From contig CALLDL010000027.1 in the NCBI GenBank assembly GCA_937998305.1, positions 1 to 51,790 of the forward strand: a stretch of DNA of 51,790 nt. The letters run 5' to 3'. The translations under genes were made by a program, and so were the position numbers. This stretch comes from an uncultured Desulfobacterales bacterium. Lineage in GTDB: Bacteria > Desulfobacterota > Desulfobacteria > Desulfobacterales > UBA11574. The notes below the pieces were generated by a model. That model worked only from the letters and a program-made list of their open reading frames with translations. It was not told the DNA's origin and did not search any database. Position 1 is the first letter of the stretch. Every line of letters begins with the position of its first letter. Below are positions 43,542 to 51,586 of the stretch, in pieces.

Positions 43542-45146
43542 TCATTTTTTGTTGTCAGATTTGCAGATGGCATAGTAGCTCAAGCAGTCTTGGAACCACT
43601 CTCGCATGTTTTCGACAAAGTCGGACCATCTCGTTCCCAGCGCCTGTCCTCTGGCTGTATCAGCGTTGCCTTCTCCTATTTTTCCATCAATAGGTGCGAT
43701 GTCCAATTGGCAGCGAACGGGGATGCGGCAGCGCGATTCGGGCTCCTGGGTAGTGACCAGCGCCGAAGCGGCAAGGCCACCTCTTTTGAGAAGATCCAAG
43801 AAAGCAGTTCGCCCCCCGACCGTATTAACCATGGTTTCTTTGATAGGCGTAAGCCGCACCGATTCGAGCACTCCGGTATGCTTGTTGGAAATATTGTCGG
43901 AACCGACATAACTCACCCCTTCTTCGGTCAGAGCCAACTGAAAAATCCTGGCGTATATGGACTCTAACTGTATACTCTGTTTGGTGAGGCGATAGTGAGC
44001 CCTAAGCCCCCATGCACCGAAGTCGATATGCTCGCAGAATACAGGGTCATACCGCTTTGAAAAATGTGCTTCATATCGTCTGACCGCCTCTTCAAGTTTT
44101 GCGCGCATACTCCCACGGTCAAGGCTCCTCTCTTCAGCTTTAGCTGTTTGCATGGCCGCTGTTTTTAAAAGATGTTGTCTGAGTGCTTCACGATCATCGC
44201 TGGTTTCATAACGATTTCTTAGCGTTTCTAAATTCACCCACATGTATTGCTTGCTGTAGTATGGGTCAGATGAAAACAAAGAGAAAATCCACAAAAGCTC
44301 TTCAAGTCGATGATCGTCCTGCGGATCCACATCCATGCGTATGGGAAGTATTTCTAAAGCATCTCCGGTGACTTTGGAAAGGTCGGGAACGAAATACCCC
44401 CTGTTTGTTTTTGAGATCCGGAATCCCCCGACTCCGCTGCCACCTGTGACCGGTTTTACAAAAAAACGGCTTCTATTCCAATGTTGAGAAAATTTATCAA
44501 CATTATCCAAAATAGTAGAAACGACCTGTGACGTGTCCATTTGTGATGCAGGAACAGTGACATAACGTGCCAGCAAGTCTTCCTTGTCCGCATCTTGCAG
44601 CATTTGGTAAGTTTTCCCCTTGTTTGAAAATATAGCCCCGGGTGCCGTGACCCGCCCGGGCAGCACGACAACTCCCATACCCTCGAGAATTTCCAGGACT
44701 TCGATGTTGTATGCCCTTGAATCAACACACTCACTGATAACCAAAGTAGACTTTGGGTTTTTATTGACAGCCGCCATCAGTTCTTCTTTGGTATTCACGA
44801 GCAGACAATAAGCGTTAACACCTAACCGTTTGATTTCATCTTGCAATACCCGAAAGGATTCAGGGCCGGTTGGAAGCCGGTCGTTAGAGGCATCAATCAA
44901 GACGATGGTGTCTGGAAAATGTGTGGCATTCGGAAGATCTAAGGCGTATTTGGAAAGTTCTTCGTCTTTTTGTGCCAGTTTGTTGAAAGATGAGATGAGT
45001 TCTACTCCAAATTTGCCAGGTTCGCTGTCGAAGCCAAGGGCGTGAAGATAAAACGGCGCCTCAGTTATAAGCCCCTTGTGGCCAAGGGAGTACAGCTCGA
45101 CAAAACGCTGCTCTATGTCGTAAGTATCCGGTGAAAAAAGTTTCAT
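43542..45146 (-). CDS. ATP-grasp-like protein 2 of the DUF1704 operon
   Basis: 534 residues. A Rossmann-like first third (VLIDASNDRLPTGPE, TLVISECVD) is followed by SNKGKTYQMLQ and FFVKPVTGGSGVGGFRI (K231 and glycine loop to 241), as in ATP-grasp ligases. The metal-binding D...ExN set is not obvious, so a partly degenerate member is possible. No membrane segment. Translationally coupled by ATGA overlap to the upstream ATP-grasp gene. Predicted to make an amide or peptide bond; substrate unknown. Confidence 0.6.
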   Translation of the reverse strand: MKLFSPDTYDIEQRFVELYSLGHKGLITEAPFYLHALGFDSEPGKFGVELISSFNKLAQKDEELSKYALDLPNATHFPDTIVLIDASNDRLPTGPESFRVLQDEIKRLGVNAYCLLVNTKEELMAAVNKNPKSTLVISECVDSRAYNIEVLEILEGMGVVVLPGRVTAPGAIFSNKGKTYQMLQDADKEDLLARYVTVPASQMDTSQVVSTILDNVDKFSQHWNRSRFFVKPVTGGSGVGGFRISKTNRGYFVPDLSKVTGDALEILPIRMDVDPQDDHRLEELLWIFSLFSSDPYYSKQYMWVNLETLRNRYETSDDREALRQHLLKTAAMQTAKAEERSLDRGSMRAKLEEAVRRYEAHFSKRYDPVFCEHIDFGAWGLRAHYRLTKQSIQLESIYARIFQLALTEEGVSYVGSDNISNKHTGVLESVRLTPIKETMVNTVGGRTAFLDLLKRGGLAASALVTTQEPESRCRIPVRCQLDIAPIDGKIGEGNADTARGQALGTRWSDFVENMREWFQDCLSYYAICKSDNKK

Positions 45147-46570
45147 TCACTACCTCCATTAAAGGGGAGCACTCTGCAGCGGCTCTGTAATTCATTTACA
45201 AAAGTCGCAGCATAAGACTCGAGTTGTTTTAAGTGGCTGTCCAGAACGCTTTCAGTTGTTTGTATCATGGCAAAACGGGCTTCCTGAAAAATTTTAGTCT
45301 CTATTTCAGGGAGATTGCCCAGGATACACCACTCACCAGGACTTTTGATGTCACGGTAGGTCGTTCCATTTCGAACCCGTTCGATGGAGTTGTTCACAAG
45401 GGTGTAAATGCCCGCTTTCATATCATGCTCGATACAATAAGGTTCATCTTTCAAGCTGTGGACAATTAAGTGAGCGCCTTTATAAGGAGTCCGGTACATC
45501 TTTTTGGACTGCTCTAAAAAATCTTGGGTAAATTCTTCTATAAGGCCCATGAACTGCATCACGTGAAGAGCTGTCATGGGAACTTCACCCCTGTCCACTT
45601 GTAGTAATGATAAAAGCATGGTCGATCCCTGAAACCTCGGGTTTATCTCCAGAGCCAGCACCTCGTCGCCATTTAGGAGAAAATCCATACCAAAGAGACC
45701 CAAAAAGCCCTCGGTGCCCATGAAAAGGCCGATTTTTTCCATAATTGTACAGATTTCTTCTCTTATGGATTTCGGCACTCTATTGGCAGCTGAAAAATCA
45801 TTTCCGCAGTAAATTTCAGCCCGGTTTGTGCATCCGTAGGTACCTACTATCTGAACCGACGGACAGGCAGCAATTGACCGCAATCCTTCACGTGTTTTCA
45901 GGACGACGCAATGTCCGTTTAAAGACGGCACCGGCAAATATTTAGATAGTTTTACGCGTTGTGAAGGTTCAAGTATATCTTCGACTCTCTCGAAGTCGGT
46001 CTCATTGTTCACAAAGTAAGTGTTTTCCCCGGAAGATCCCACCGGGGGCTGTACTACAAACGGGCCATCCAAAATATCGCTGGCCTTGGAAAAGGTTGTT
46101 TCAGCCAAAGGGCATACAAAAGTCGCCGGCGTCTTTACACCCAATATGGAAAACAGTTCCAGTTGCCGCAACTTGTCGTCAAACAGGTCCTTAAGCATCA
46201 AGGGGGGCGCCAAAACACGAAAACGTCTGTCATTTTCTAACACCTTAAGGGAACGGTAGCAAACCGTATTGATAGGTTCCTTCACACCACTGATGTATGT
46301 TTCAATCCGTTTCCGTGTCGGCTCTTCCCACAGCATTTCAAGATCCTGATTTCCCCAGTTTTCCCGCCTCCCGAGATCTTTTTCCACAGAAAACAGGGAC
46401 TTTTCTGTCCAAAGTCTTGCATATTCCTCACCAAAATCACAACAAAATCCAGCATCTACGGAAACAAAGTCAAGCATCGTAAACGCATCGATGCCCCTCT
46501 GTCCTACCCAGGCCCAGGTTCCCCGGCATTTGCTCAGAGCATCCTTAAGTTTGCTCAGATTCTTTATCAT
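45143..46570 (-). CDS. ATP-grasp ligase 1 of the DUF1704 operon
   Basis: 475 residues. ATP-grasp signs: DDKLRQLELFSILGVKTP (131-148), the glycine loop FVVQPPVGSSGENTYFV (171-187), and metal ligands in FGMDF (293-297) and ALEINPRFQGST (E308, N310). A further helical C-terminal part (about 340-475) is not recognised. Such enzymes activate a carboxylate as acyl phosphate and join it to an amine. The start lies 26 bases inside the upstream peptidase gene and the stop overlaps the next start. Confidence 0.8.
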   Translation of the reverse strand: MIKNLSKLKDALSKCRGTWAWVGQRGIDAFTMLDFVSVDAGFCCDFGEEYARLWTEKSLFSVEKDLGRRENWGNQDLEMLWEEPTRKRIETYISGVKEPINTVCYRSLKVLENDRRFRVLAPPLMLKDLFDDKLRQLELFSILGVKTPATFVCPLAETTFSKASDILDGPFVVQPPVGSSGENTYFVNNETDFERVEDILEPSQRVKLSKYLPVPSLNGHCVVLKTREGLRSIAACPSVQIVGTYGCTNRAEIYCGNDFSAANRVPKSIREEICTIMEKIGLFMGTEGFLGLFGMDFLLNGDEVLALEINPRFQGSTMLLSLLQVDRGEVPMTALHVMQFMGLIEEFTQDFLEQSKKMYRTPYKGAHLIVHSLKDEPYCIEHDMKAGIYTLVNNSIERVRNGTTYRDIKSPGEWCILGNLPEIETKIFQEARFAMIQTTESVLDSHLKQLESYAATFVNELQSRCRVLPFNGGSE

Positions 46571-47651
46571 TGTTCATTTCCACCGGAAAAATCCAATTCG
46601 AGGTATCCACAAAACCCTTTTGTACAAACCTGACTATTAATTTAGCATGTTTGAAAGCTATTTTTCCACCCATAAGCATTTTAAGATTACCTTTAGTGTG
46701 AAGGAACGACTGAACCCTATTGGGTCCGGTAAAGTAATGAAATTCCTTTGTAAGCGCGCCTGAACGTGAGGTGTCGGCCAATCCCCGTTTCACCCGCTCT
46801 ACAATCGTATATGCTGTCTCTTCATCGAAATACACCAAGAGTTCTTCAAAAACTTCTGTAAATCCGGCCGAAAGAGACAGGTACACCGCCAAGCAGCGCC
46901 CAGCGTAAATTTTCTCCTGGAAGGGATAAAGGTGATCCGAATAGCGTTCAAAGTGAACCGCAAGGCCTTCTTCGGCTTCTCGGTAGCCTGCTGTACCCAT
47001 GGAAAAAATACCCCATGGGAAGCAAGAACCATTGTGAATACGAACGGCGTGAACATCGATCTCGTGCACCAGAAGGCGTTTTACTTCCTGGGGTGCAAAT
47101 AAGGCATTTCGATTAAGATGAATTACGCGGGAAACGCTGTCTACCGAAATTTTTGTGGCCATGGAAGAAACCAGCTTGATATCCATGGAAATACCAAGTT
47201 TTTCTAAGCGAGCCTCAAGGAACTTTGCAAAGTCTTCTGCTGAGCAGTTTCGTTCAGGTGGTATAACATTCGAAAATTTTTCTAGAACCCGGTGAGCCTG
47301 CTGGGCGTCTTCAGCGGTCGGAGCGCCGAAAATTTCAATAGCATACTGTGTAAATTTATCGCTACCAACCGCAGCGAACATATTTTTAGTCCTGTCCAGC
47401 TCAAGCTGTTTTTCCCGGTAGATTTCAACGACTTCATCCGGAGCATCCATGGATTCAAGAGGCAAAATCGGCTTAAAATCAATCCAGTTTGAAGGTGTAT
47501 TTTTATATTTAAACGAAGGAGATTTTTTCTTGTTTGAAAAACGAGGGTGCAGAAAAGCTTTTTTTTCCTCGAGTAAGTTTGTCGGCTTCACCACCTGACC
47601 CAGTGTGAGTTGTTGCAGCAAACTTCTAAGCTTCTTATCCGTGGCGTTCAT
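46545..47651 (-). CDS. DUF1704/MATCAP-like zinc metallopeptidase (QEGLP-motif family)
   Basis: 368 residues from the ATG at 47651, ten bases after the gltA stop; a longer frame would run into gltA. HExxxH zinc motif in LLVHEIDVHAV (H196, E197, H201), followed by the EGLA block EEGLAVHFE (E227-E228), the family hallmark. DUF1704 proteins are the bacterial relatives of the eukaryotic tyrosine carboxypeptidase MATCAP; bacterial members are often labelled flavohemoglobin-modulating QEGLP proteins. No signal peptide, so cytosolic. Operon with two ATP-grasp genes suggests removal of a residue those enzymes add; inference. Confidence 0.85.
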   Translation of the reverse strand: MNATDKKLRSLLQQLTLGQVVKPTNLLEEKKAFLHPRFSNKKKSPSFKYKNTPSNWIDFKPILPLESMDAPDEVVEIYREKQLELDRTKNMFAAVGSDKFTQYAIEIFGAPTAEDAQQAHRVLEKFSNVIPPERNCSAEDFAKFLEARLEKLGISMDIKLVSSMATKISVDSVSRVIHLNRNALFAPQEVKRLLVHEIDVHAVRIHNGSCFPWGIFSMGTAGYREAEEGLAVHFERYSDHLYPFQEKIYAGRCLAVYLSLSAGFTEVFEELLVYFDEETAYTIVERVKRGLADTSRSGALTKEFHYFTGPNRVQSFLHTKGNLKMLMGGKIAFKHAKLIVRFVQKGFVDTSNWIFPVEMNNDKESEQT

Positions 47652-47661
47652 CGATATAGGA

Positions 47662-48942
47662 CTATCGCTGTTCGATGGGAATATAATCGGTTTTGATAGG
47701 TCCGGTGTAAATCTGACGAGGTCGTCCAAGTTTCCATTTGGGATCATCGACACTCTCTTTCCATTGAGCGATCCAGCCCGGCAACCGGCCGATGGCAAAC
47801 ATGACCGTAAACATGTTGGTGGGAATGCCCATGGCTCGCAGGACTATGCCACTGTAAAAGTCGATGTTTGGATACAGATTGTATTCAATAAAATAATCAT
47901 CTTTTAATGCCGCTTCTTCGAGTTCCTTGGCAATATCGAGTAACGGATCGCTAATTTTGAGCTTGGCAAGAACCTTATCACACATCTTTTTCATGATTTT
48001 GGCCCGCGGATCATATGCCTTGTAAACGCGATGACCAAAACCCATGAGTCGAAACGAATCGTTTTTATCTTTGGCGCGTTCAATAGCCCGGCGATAGTTC
48101 CCACCGTCATTTTGAATATCGGTAAGCATTTCGATGACCGCCTGATTGGCTCCCCCATGAAGGGGACCCCATAGGGCCGCTATACCGGCGGAAATAGCCG
48201 CATATAGATTAACTCTCCCACTCCCCACCAGCCTTACCGCTGAAGTAGAACAGTTCTGCTCATGGTCAGCGTGAAGAATCCAGAAAACATCCAGTGCCTT
48301 TACCAGGTCTTCATCAATGGGATACGGCCTAACCGGTGTATCAAACATCATGTTTAGAAAATTTGCACTGTATTTTAGATCAGGTCGTGGATAAACGACT
48401 TTGTGACCTCTCGATATCTTATAAGACATGGCTGCCATCGTCCGAACTTTTGATAATAGACGAGTAACCGTGATATTGATTTCCTCTTCAATGGTCTCAA
48501 GCTCCGGATAAAAACTCCTTAAAGCATTCACCATAGATGAGAGTATTCCCATGGGATGAGAAGCCCTGGGAAAGTTCTGATAAAAAATCTGCATGTCCTC
48601 ATGCACAAGTGAGTTGTCATTAAACAGAACCGACATGTTGTTGAGTTCCTCTTTGGCAGGCAACACGCCGTTAATTAACAGATAGACGGTTTCGATAAAA
48701 CTCGAATGTTCAGCCAGCTGTTTGACCGGGATACCTCGATACCGTAAAATTCCTTTTTCACCATCCATGAACGTAATGGAACTGGTGCAGCTGCCGGTGT
48801 TGGCATATCCCGGATCCAGGGTAATTAGGCCTGTTTTTTGGCGAAGGTTTGAAATGTCGATGGCCTTTTCGCCTTCACTGCCGGTAACAATTGGCAGTTC
48901 ATATGTTTTGCCTTCAAATATAAGTTTAACCTTATCTTTCAT
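47662..48942 (-). CDS. gltA: Citrate synthase (type II, hexameric-like)
   Basis: 426 residues from the ATG at 48942, with AGAGGTGGG just upstream; a longer frame to 48999 lacks a ribosome site. Active-site histidines in LHADHEQNCS and GPLHGGANQAV, catalytic aspartate region NIDFYSGIVLRAMGIP. Joins acetyl-CoA and oxaloacetate. First gene of a four-gene transcription unit and 10 bases before the metallopeptidase. Confidence 0.96.
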   Translation of the reverse strand: MKDKVKLIFEGKTYELPIVTGSEGEKAIDISNLRQKTGLITLDPGYANTGSCTSSITFMDGEKGILRYRGIPVKQLAEHSSFIETVYLLINGVLPAKEELNNMSVLFNDNSLVHEDMQIFYQNFPRASHPMGILSSMVNALRSFYPELETIEEEINITVTRLLSKVRTMAAMSYKISRGHKVVYPRPDLKYSANFLNMMFDTPVRPYPIDEDLVKALDVFWILHADHEQNCSTSAVRLVGSGRVNLYAAISAGIAALWGPLHGGANQAVIEMLTDIQNDGGNYRRAIERAKDKNDSFRLMGFGHRVYKAYDPRAKIMKKMCDKVLAKLKISDPLLDIAKELEEAALKDDYFIEYNLYPNIDFYSGIVLRAMGIPTNMFTVMFAIGRLPGWIAQWKESVDDPKWKLGRPRQIYTGPIKTDYIPIEQR

Positions 48943-49405
48943 ATCCCACCTCTGTGTTTCAAATGAGTGATTACCGTTTAGTATTCCCAGTTTAAACAAA
49001 GTGATTAACCTCCTATTATATCAGCTGCATTGGCATGCCAATAAACTGCGTATAATCATACGTCTGAACAGGACGGAAACGCTTTTATATTGACTTGTGG
49101 AATTGCCACATCTCCATTTATCGAAGCTGCGTTAATTTGAAAAAAACTTTTGTATACATGAATATCAATATAACGTCAAGAAACCGTTGAAAAATATTTA
49201 CAAACTATCGTTTACATGTGCTCTTAAGGTATGATAAATTTAGAATTCAAGTTTTTCACCCAATTATTGCGAAAAAGCCTTTGAAGCACCGAGCCGAAAG
49301 AAATTTTTTGCGTGTTCACGGAGTGTACTTCCTCGTGTGACGATATTGGCGGAGTGGCTTCGTCATTACGCATCCTTTATCCTGTACTTTGTATGAGGAG
49401 GCATT
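48943..49405. other. Divergent regulatory region between gltA and the CheD-HDOD pair
   Basis: 463 bases. Contains the gltA promoter at 49151-49179, a small inverted repeat TGTGG/CCACA (49096-49110) in the gltA leader, and further on an imperfect palindrome CACGGAG/CTCGTG (49318-49338). A plus-strand promoter for 49406 is expected but not clearly seen; TTTACA near 49212 lacks a good partner. Confidence 0.5.
49151..49179 (-). promoter_or_regulatory. Sigma-70 promoter for gltA and its operon
   Basis: On the minus strand TTGACG (49179-49174), a 17-base spacer and TATACA (49156-49151). The transcript would have a leader of roughly 200 bases before gltA, long enough to hold control elements. Confidence 0.6.
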
Positions 49406-50212
49406 GTGTCTTTTAAAGAAAATCTTTTAAAAAAAATCAAACTAGACAAAATGGGGCGACAGGTCATTGCTTCCATCGGTCCTGTAGACAGTAGTCGCAA
49501 GATAGACAAGAAAATCATGCGTAAACTTCTCGATCTAGCCGATTATACTTACAAAAGAAAACGGGATCTCGATCTTTATATCGAGAATATCGATGCCGAA
49601 AAGACCCGGATTCTGGTGCTCGACAATGATCTGGCCATTTACAATACTTCTGTCTACGATGTTGCCATGCGCAAAAGTCCCACCGTAAAAGAGATGATGA
49701 ATCCTTTCAATGTGGTCAAAATATTAAAAGATACCGACGTGGTCATAAGCAAAAAGGAAGACTCCGTTAAGACCGTTCAACAGGAATGCATCGCAAAACT
49801 GAACCTATCCTTTAACGCATCCGATCTCGATGAAATAGCCAAAGACGGCTTGGCGTCTTTTGAAAACGGATACTCGGACGGCGTCATTGAATGCCTTGAT
49901 CTTTTTGCAGAAATTTTACATTACAGAAACGCACCCAAAGCCTTTAGAGTTGGCCACCACAAAATTACCGGAGCATTGGCCAAAAAAGAAAACGGGGAAG
50001 AAATGTTCGGCCCCATGGTCCTTTACAGTATGATTCACAACACTCTAAAATTGATCGATCAGCAGATCGGCCGTTTTGATAGAGAAGGGATAGAATTTAT
50101 TCAGCACGTTGCAGAAGGAAAGGAGAAGGCCTCGGCAGAAGGCTCGGATGTTTTTCAATATCTCAAAGAAGCTGCGGTTGATCTATTGGAGTTGGAGATT
50201 AATGAGAAATGA
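49406..50212 (+). CDS. Hypothetical protein coupled to CheD-HDOD
   Basis: 268 residues, not recognised. Starts GTG at 49406 with GAGGAGG upstream. The sequence is cytosolic and mixed alpha/beta with a helical end (LKEAAVDLLELEINEK). A possible metal or acid cluster is HYRNAPKAFRVGHHK. Its stop overlaps the next start by four bases, so the two proteins probably act together, perhaps in signalling. No family named. Confidence 0.7.
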   Translation: MSFKENLLKKIKLDKMGRQVIASIGPVDSSRKIDKKIMRKLLDLADYTYKRKRDLDLYIENIDAEKTRILVLDNDLAIYNTSVYDVAMRKSPTVKEMMNPFNVVKILKDTDVVISKKEDSVKTVQQECIAKLNLSFNASDLDEIAKDGLASFENGYSDGVIECLDLFAEILHYRNAPKAFRVGHHKITGALAKKENGEEMFGPMVLYSMIHNTLKLIDQQIGRFDREGIEFIQHVAEGKEKASAEGSDVFQYLKEAAVDLLELEINEK

Positions 50213-51546
50213 AAAAAGAAATTGTGACCTCAGGTGCATCTGTTATTAGTAAGAAAAAAAAAGAAAGCCTTGAAGCATATCTGGGGAGTTGTGTAGGGGT
50301 CACTCTGGTTGATCGCCAGGCAAATGTGGGAGGATTACTTCACCTTCTTTTGGCCGAGGCTACAGGGATGGATATGTCTTTTCAACCTGAAAGTTATGCG
50401 ACCACCGGCATGCCGCATTTTTTTAAGAAGTTGATTGATGCTGGTGCTTCGAAAGAGAGGCTGGAAGCATGCGTAGCCGGAGGTGCTCTGATCGGGCCCG
50501 TGTCAGATCAAGACCTGTCTTTAGATATTGGAGGGCGAACAGCCGAAGTGGTTCAAACGTATCTTGAGGATCAGGGGATTCCAATAAATGAAAGTGAAAC
50601 CGGCGGATATTCTGGGCGCAAAATGAGTCTCGATCTTTATTACTGGAACACGACCATTCAACCTGCATTTCAAATTGAAAGGCCGTCGATGAGTCCTTTT
50701 CAAACTGATGTTGTTTTCACCATTGATGAAGCGATTCAGAGAGTTAAGCCAATACCTCAGGTGGCACTGAAGGTCATCCGTATGATACACCAAGACGATT
50801 GTACAATGAAGGAAATAGGGCGTGAAATCCGCCAAGACCAGGTGATCAGCGGAAGAGTTTTAAATCTTTGCAACTCTGTTATCATGGGACTAAAAACGGT
50901 CGTCGATTCCATTGATCGAGCACTGATATTGGTAGGGGAAAAGCGCCTTTTAAAACTCGTCGTTACGGCATCTGTCAAATCGCTTTTCCCCCAATCATCT
51001 CAAGGTTATTCCCTGTGCAAGGGGGGAATCTTCCAGCATTCAATTGGAACTGCCCTGATTGCTCAAGAACTTGCCGTTTTTACTAAGAAGGCAGCACCCG
51101 ATGTTGCTTATACAGCCGGCCTTTTGCATGATATAGGAAAAATTCCGATGGATCAGGTTATGGCGGCAAACGCCCCTTTTTTCTATAGATATACGCAGGA
51201 AAAGGGTGCTGAATTGTGCGAGGCGGAAAAATTGAAGTTCGGTATAGATCATACTGAAGCAGGACGGCAGTTGGGCAAGAGATGGGCCCTGCCGGACAAT
51301 TTGATCAATGTGATTGCAAACCATCATTATCCCGAAACTGCGACTGAAGACAAAAAACTTGTAACGCTGGTGTATCTTGCTGATCTATTGATGTCAAAAT
51401 TTCAAGCACACTACGAGTTGGAGCAAATCAATACGGAAAAATTATTACACAGACTGAATCTATTGGACCTGAATTCCGATCATCTTCCAATTCTGATTGA
51501 TATTATCCCGAAAAACCTTTTTCAATCTGCATCCATGCCGATCTGA
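50209..51546 (+). CDS. CheD-like deamidase fused to an HDOD domain
   Basis: 445 residues. Residues 1-150 are CheD-like: GSCVGVTLV with the nucleophile C28, HLLL with H45, AGGALIGP and GYSGRKMSLDL. Residues about 165-400 form an HDOD domain (IQRVKPIPQVALKVIRMI, GRVLNLCNSV, QHSIGTALIAQEL, GLLHDIGK); the HD pair is kept. CheD deamidates glutamines of chemoreceptors and binds CheC; HDOD modules join signalling proteins. No chemotaxis genes are near, so targets are unknown. Confidence 0.85.
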   Translation: MKKEIVTSGASVISKKKKESLEAYLGSCVGVTLVDRQANVGGLLHLLLAEATGMDMSFQPESYATTGMPHFFKKLIDAGASKERLEACVAGGALIGPVSDQDLSLDIGGRTAEVVQTYLEDQGIPINESETGGYSGRKMSLDLYYWNTTIQPAFQIERPSMSPFQTDVVFTIDEAIQRVKPIPQVALKVIRMIHQDDCTMKEIGREIRQDQVISGRVLNLCNSVIMGLKTVVDSIDRALILVGEKRLLKLVVTASVKSLFPQSSQGYSLCKGGIFQHSIGTALIAQELAVFTKKAAPDVAYTAGLLHDIGKIPMDQVMAANAPFFYRYTQEKGAELCEAEKLKFGIDHTEAGRQLGKRWALPDNLINVIANHHYPETATEDKKLVTLVYLADLLMSKFQAHYELEQINTEKLLHRLNLLDLNSDHLPILIDIIPKNLFQSASMPI

Positions 51547-51551
51547 ATACT

Positions 51552-51586
51552 AAAAAGGGGATCTCCATTAGAGACCCCCTTTTTAT
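51552..51586 (+). terminator. Rho-independent terminator after CheD-HDOD
   Basis: AAAAAGGGG-ATCTC pairs with GAGA-CCCCCTTTTT around a six-base loop, followed by more T residues. It lies six bases after the stop codon and could also serve the minus-strand gene ending at 51661. Confidence 0.85.

Follow-up and report, generated by a model that had tools for sequence, protein, structure and literature searches.

What does a CheD protein modify when it is fused to an HDOD module and encoded away from any chemotaxis operon? CheD is seen as an enzyme that acts on chemoreceptors. Here, we analysed such a locus in an uncultured Desulfobacterales bacterium; the stretch of DNA analysed (the window, 51,790 nucleotides) is the entire contig C27 of a 3.35-Mb draft genome that is 88.6% complete. 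The original prediction, made from the letters alone, had described the fusion as a possible glutamine-deamidating switch for another signalling system, coupled to an unrecognised protein encoded directly upstream.

A conserved CheD-HDOD fusion with an invariant cysteine and histidine

The open reading frame at 50209-51546 (forward strand) starts with ATG and encodes a protein of 445 amino acids, in which Pfam matches and an alignment with Thermotoga maritima CheD (2f9z_C) place a CheD domain at approximately residues 1-150 and an HDOD domain at residues 176-395. The alignment with T. maritima CheD covers residues 4-142 (50218-50634, forward strand), and the CheD family PF03975 matched residues 55-148 (E = 2.2e-20, 73.2 bits against a gathering score of 25). 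The HDOD family PF08668 matched residues 181-375 (50749-51333, forward strand; E = 6.6e-47, 160 bits against a gathering score of 22.9), and the HD family PF01966 was also matched (E = 2.6e-15). Among PDB sequences, several solved HDOD proteins align with residues 176-395; compared with 3hc1 and 3m1t, the HDOD match is full-length with the HD metal residues in common, while the fusion adds an N-terminal deamidase domain. The same architecture was found in 119 loci, counting other genomes and this one, which confirms that CheD precedes HDOD in one reading frame, rules out an assembly artefact or chance as the origin of the fusion, and shows that CheD-HDOD is a real, conserved variant of CheD.

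The CheD half is homologous to T. maritima CheD, with the motifs around LGSCV and GG..H common to both. Cys28 (codon 50290-50292, forward strand) aligns with Cys27 of T. maritima CheD and His45 (codon 50341-50343, forward strand) with His44, and both are invariant in 119 of 119 aligned fusions. The original prediction had named these two residues as the catalytic pair, and the alignment agrees; since the fusions are divergent, such invariance makes selection for chemistry likely. The position of T. maritima Thr21, proposed as the third residue of the catalytic triad, is occupied by Glu22 in the window's protein and mostly by Glu or Gln, also Lys or Asp, across the fusions; it is Thr in 18 of 24 standalone CheD matches. 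In the HDOD half, the HD doublet is formed by His307-Asp308 (51127-51132, forward strand), and the other expected HD ligands are H277, H348, H372, H373 and D392. Each of H277, H307, D308, H348, H372 and H373 is kept in 113-117 of the 119 fusions, the exceptions being mostly truncated or deleted copies, and the D392 position is Asp in 94 fusions and Asn in 19. The best NCBIfam CheD equivalog score of the window's protein was 83.6 bits against a cut-off of 240, and it falls far under all such cut-offs. AlphaFold models of CheD-HDOD and the upstream protein, built from shallow alignments, had pLDDT values of 45 and 35, which is too poor for use.

When the CheD part was used as a query, strong matches were found in 113 of 291 genomes of the order, and for most of the matches listed the surrounding open frame was 400-530 amino acids long; standalone CheD proteins of about 160-200 amino acids formed a separate set of weaker matches. 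The fusion is also present in further families of the phylum, so the statement that CheD normally stands alone understates how often it is fused. Two candidate fusions, L289 and L292, turned out to be standalone CheD genes inside longer reading frames, and the tree excludes them. One genome carries two tandem CheD-HDOD copies (L238; G070:C77:269-694 and 1670-2101). None of the papers searched names both CheD and HDOD. In Leptospira interrogans (NZ_CP020413.2, 62502-63865), separate cheD and HDOD genes adjoin, so that the domains follow each other as in the fusion, and the catalytic Cys and His are present; this pair differs from the fusion in being two genes, which are followed by a shikimate kinase gene, and no che gene is annotated within the 19 kb shown. 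The adjacency is an independent link of the two domains. A paper on c-di-GMP in Leptospira held nothing useful on a link to HDOD.

Gene neighbourhoods of the fusion

Upstream of the fusion lies P0002, an orphan reading frame of 268 amino acids with a GTG start (49406-50212, forward strand), whose TGA stop codon overlaps the ATG start of CheD-HDOD by 4 bp (ATGA, 50209-50212, forward strand). CheD-HDOD is followed by a strong hairpin and a T tail (51551-51585, forward strand; -18.2 kcal/mol, z -4.3) that resemble a rho-independent terminator; the overlap and the hairpin together indicate a unit of two genes, with P0002 as the first. Within the genus, the overlap also occurs in G003, and the other three genomes have gaps of about 13, 26 and 67 bp. 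Searches of Pfam, NCBIfam and the PDB by sequence and profile gave no convincing match for the window's P0002, and no Pfam domain was common to the 27 family members scanned; that this protein is unrecognised was correctly noted in the original prediction. Divergent to P0002 is a neighbour outside the system, a gene named by eye as citrate-synthase-like (47662-48999, reverse strand). Beside it, three adjoining reading frames occupy 43542-47798 (reverse strand), two of them ATP-grasp-like by eye, and the frame at 46545-47798 (reverse strand) contains a HEIDVHAVR motif, by eye like that of DUF1704/QEGLA proteins.

The expected conservation of this partnership did not hold up in the neighbourhood survey. 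P0002 is an order-wide family, present in 53 of 60 relatives and also in a small number of genomes from other parts of the phylum, nearly always without a fusion alongside; the relatives found through it carry the titles Desulfobacteraceae, Desulfobacterales or Deltaproteobacteria. A citrate-synthase-like gene often lies divergent to P0002, and the genes downstream of it vary by lineage. P0002 adjoins CheD-HDOD in the window's genus only (5 of 5 sampled genomes), and 117 of the 119 fusion loci in the main survey adjoin other genes, both exceptions belonging to this genus. P0002 as a dedicated partner was therefore rejected, and it is most likely a local, co-transcribed neighbour of CheD-HDOD and not its substrate.

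The commonest neighbour of the fusion is selA, which lies directly downstream in 56 of 90 surveyed loci of the order (for example L105, L106 and L119; the selA of L105 scores 625.7 bits against a TIGR00474 cut-off of 267.9). A TPR gene usually comes next, often along with a gmhA-like gene, and selA offers no obvious link to motility. Among the papers searched, one mentions both CheD and selA, and its title is unrelated. A second, flagellar group consists of 10 loci with GGDEF, HD-GYP-type and FlaG-type genes around CheD-HDOD. In the tree of fusions, the selA-linked proteins form a clade of 67 rows (SH-aLRT 100), among which most of the receptor-less genomes described below fall; a weaker clade of 19 rows (SH-aLRT 85) unites the window's genus with fusions in flagellar, GGDEF and HD-GYP contexts. 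The selA-linked CheD-HDOD proteins share the architecture and the invariant residues of the window's fusion and differ from it in tree position and in being followed immediately by selA and a TPR gene.

Chemotaxis genes in the window's genome and its relatives

No che gene was recognised beside CheD-HDOD, so its placement outside a chemotaxis operon is correct; yet a che cluster is present on a separate contig of the genome (C39). This cluster contains a STAS gene, a 1084-amino-acid CheA with several CheW-type pieces, two receptors, CheW, CheB, CheR, a receiver and Hpt (MCP and CheW were named by profile and the remaining genes by eye), and no cheD. CheD-HDOD is the sole CheD match in this 88.6% complete genome, so that canonical receptor deamidation is possible in the window's organism. 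Both receptors carry Gln-containing methylation-type sites (ATAAEQMIAT and ATAAEQMTST), and the same site is EE in two related genera, g4 and g6. CheC (PF04509) had no match in this draft genome and a weak one in G003 of the same genus; FlhA was likewise not found in the draft and is present in G003. A standalone HDOD-like gene (L157, 217-1068, by eye) lies near the che cluster and adjoins a hybrid histidine kinase gene.

Across the order, CheW was found in 95 of 113 genomes with the fusion and in 128 of 178 genomes without it, a mild association (Fisher p 0.02, uncorrected for species kinship). In the other 18 genomes with the fusion, CheW was not found at E 1e-5, and 17 of them also have no MCPsignal domain (PF00015, E 1e-3). 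Among the receptor-less assemblies, G050, G109 and G209 are 97% complete, G025 is 92% complete and G170 is a single contig. The flagellar gene flhA is kept in 12 of the 18 (G025, G050, G097, G109, G137, G145, G161, G170, G178, G186, G205 and G207), all without CheW and the chemoreceptor domain, and these are probably flagellated bacteria without chemotaxis. The six without flhA include two with a broken HDOD half (G088 and G209); these copies (L219 and L228, respectively) are truncated or deleted there, in genomes that also lack CheW and receptors. This hints, from few genomes, that CheD-HDOD is tied to motility. The sister species G004 (89% complete) gave no match for CheW, MCP, flagellin or FlhA and keeps the P0002/CheD-HDOD pair with its residues intact; retention of the pair after an apparent loss of chemotaxis is suggestive only.

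Retention of the fusion in the 17 receptor-less genomes makes a target other than chemoreceptors likely, at least in those lineages. The window's protein differs from the CheD chemoreceptor deamidase in its HDOD domain, its location outside a che operon, the replaced Thr of the proposed triad, its score under the equivalog cut-offs and the retention of the fusion where no receptor was found. The proposed switch in another signalling system is partly supported, by the invariant Cys and His and by these 17 genomes; the part that gave P0002 as its partner is not.

Possible targets of CheD-HDOD

With moderate confidence, we propose that CheD-HDOD belongs to a phylum-wide family and is a catalytically competent glutamine deamidase in a signalling branch linked to motility, serving receptors where these are present and one or more further targets. 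The CheD half, through Cys28 and His45, would dock on helical signalling proteins and deamidate their glutamines, and the HDOD half may provide the output or the localisation, perhaps by acting as a metal phosphohydrolase. As the sole CheD of the window's organism, the fusion probably acts on the two receptors encoded in the remote che cluster. Its retention in relatives without receptors points to at least one further target, and its tie would be to motility and not to chemoreceptors alone. Against this proposal stand the replaced Thr21, the NCBIfam score below cut-off, the association with CheW and the position of selA as the commonest neighbour. A broader version, held more tentatively, is that CheD-HDOD could be a phylum-wide family of signalling glutamine deamidases that has left chemotaxis. 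Its target would be something other than a receptor, such as a flagellar, c-di-GMP or selenium/housekeeping protein, and the family would be maintained with its catalytic residues intact in bacteria that have flagella and no chemoreceptors.

An ordinary chemoreceptor deamidase whose fusion is incidental, acting on the two receptors of the remote cluster with HDOD as a tether or regulator, would account for the single CheD, the che cluster without cheD and the E-Q sites of the receptors. The relatives G009, G013 and G016 are in keeping with it, as they too have only a fused CheD, together with che genes and a flagellar context. Such a reading is possible for the window's organism itself and less likely than the proposal above; the 17 receptor-less genomes and the pair kept in G004 speak against it. 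In addition, the C39 cluster has its own CheB, and CheB is also able to deamidate receptors in E. coli.

It is improbable that the CheD half is a non-catalytic binding or scaffold domain and that signalling is left to HDOD. The replacement at Thr21 would fit this, as would B. subtilis CheD, which binds CheC and receptors in a role separate from its catalysis (PMC3513319); however, the unbroken conservation of C28 and H45 over such divergent fusions would be hard to explain if the chemistry were dispensable. Still less probable, indeed very improbable, is a dedicated switch in which P0002 is the substrate or regulator of CheD-HDOD. In favour of such a switch, the two genes overlap or lie close together in each of the five genomes sampled from the genus, one of them seemingly without chemotaxis, but P0002 occurs in most relatives and beyond the order with hardly any fusion beside it, and nearly all fusion loci have other neighbours.

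Taken together, these results favour a motility-linked CheD-HDOD deamidase with a target beyond the receptors. If this is true, glutamine deamidation would serve bacterial signalling in a second way, through a CheD with invariant catalytic residues in receptor-less genomes. The genomes without receptors, several of them flagellated and of high quality, would be the place to seek the new substrate, as there is no receptor there to mask it.
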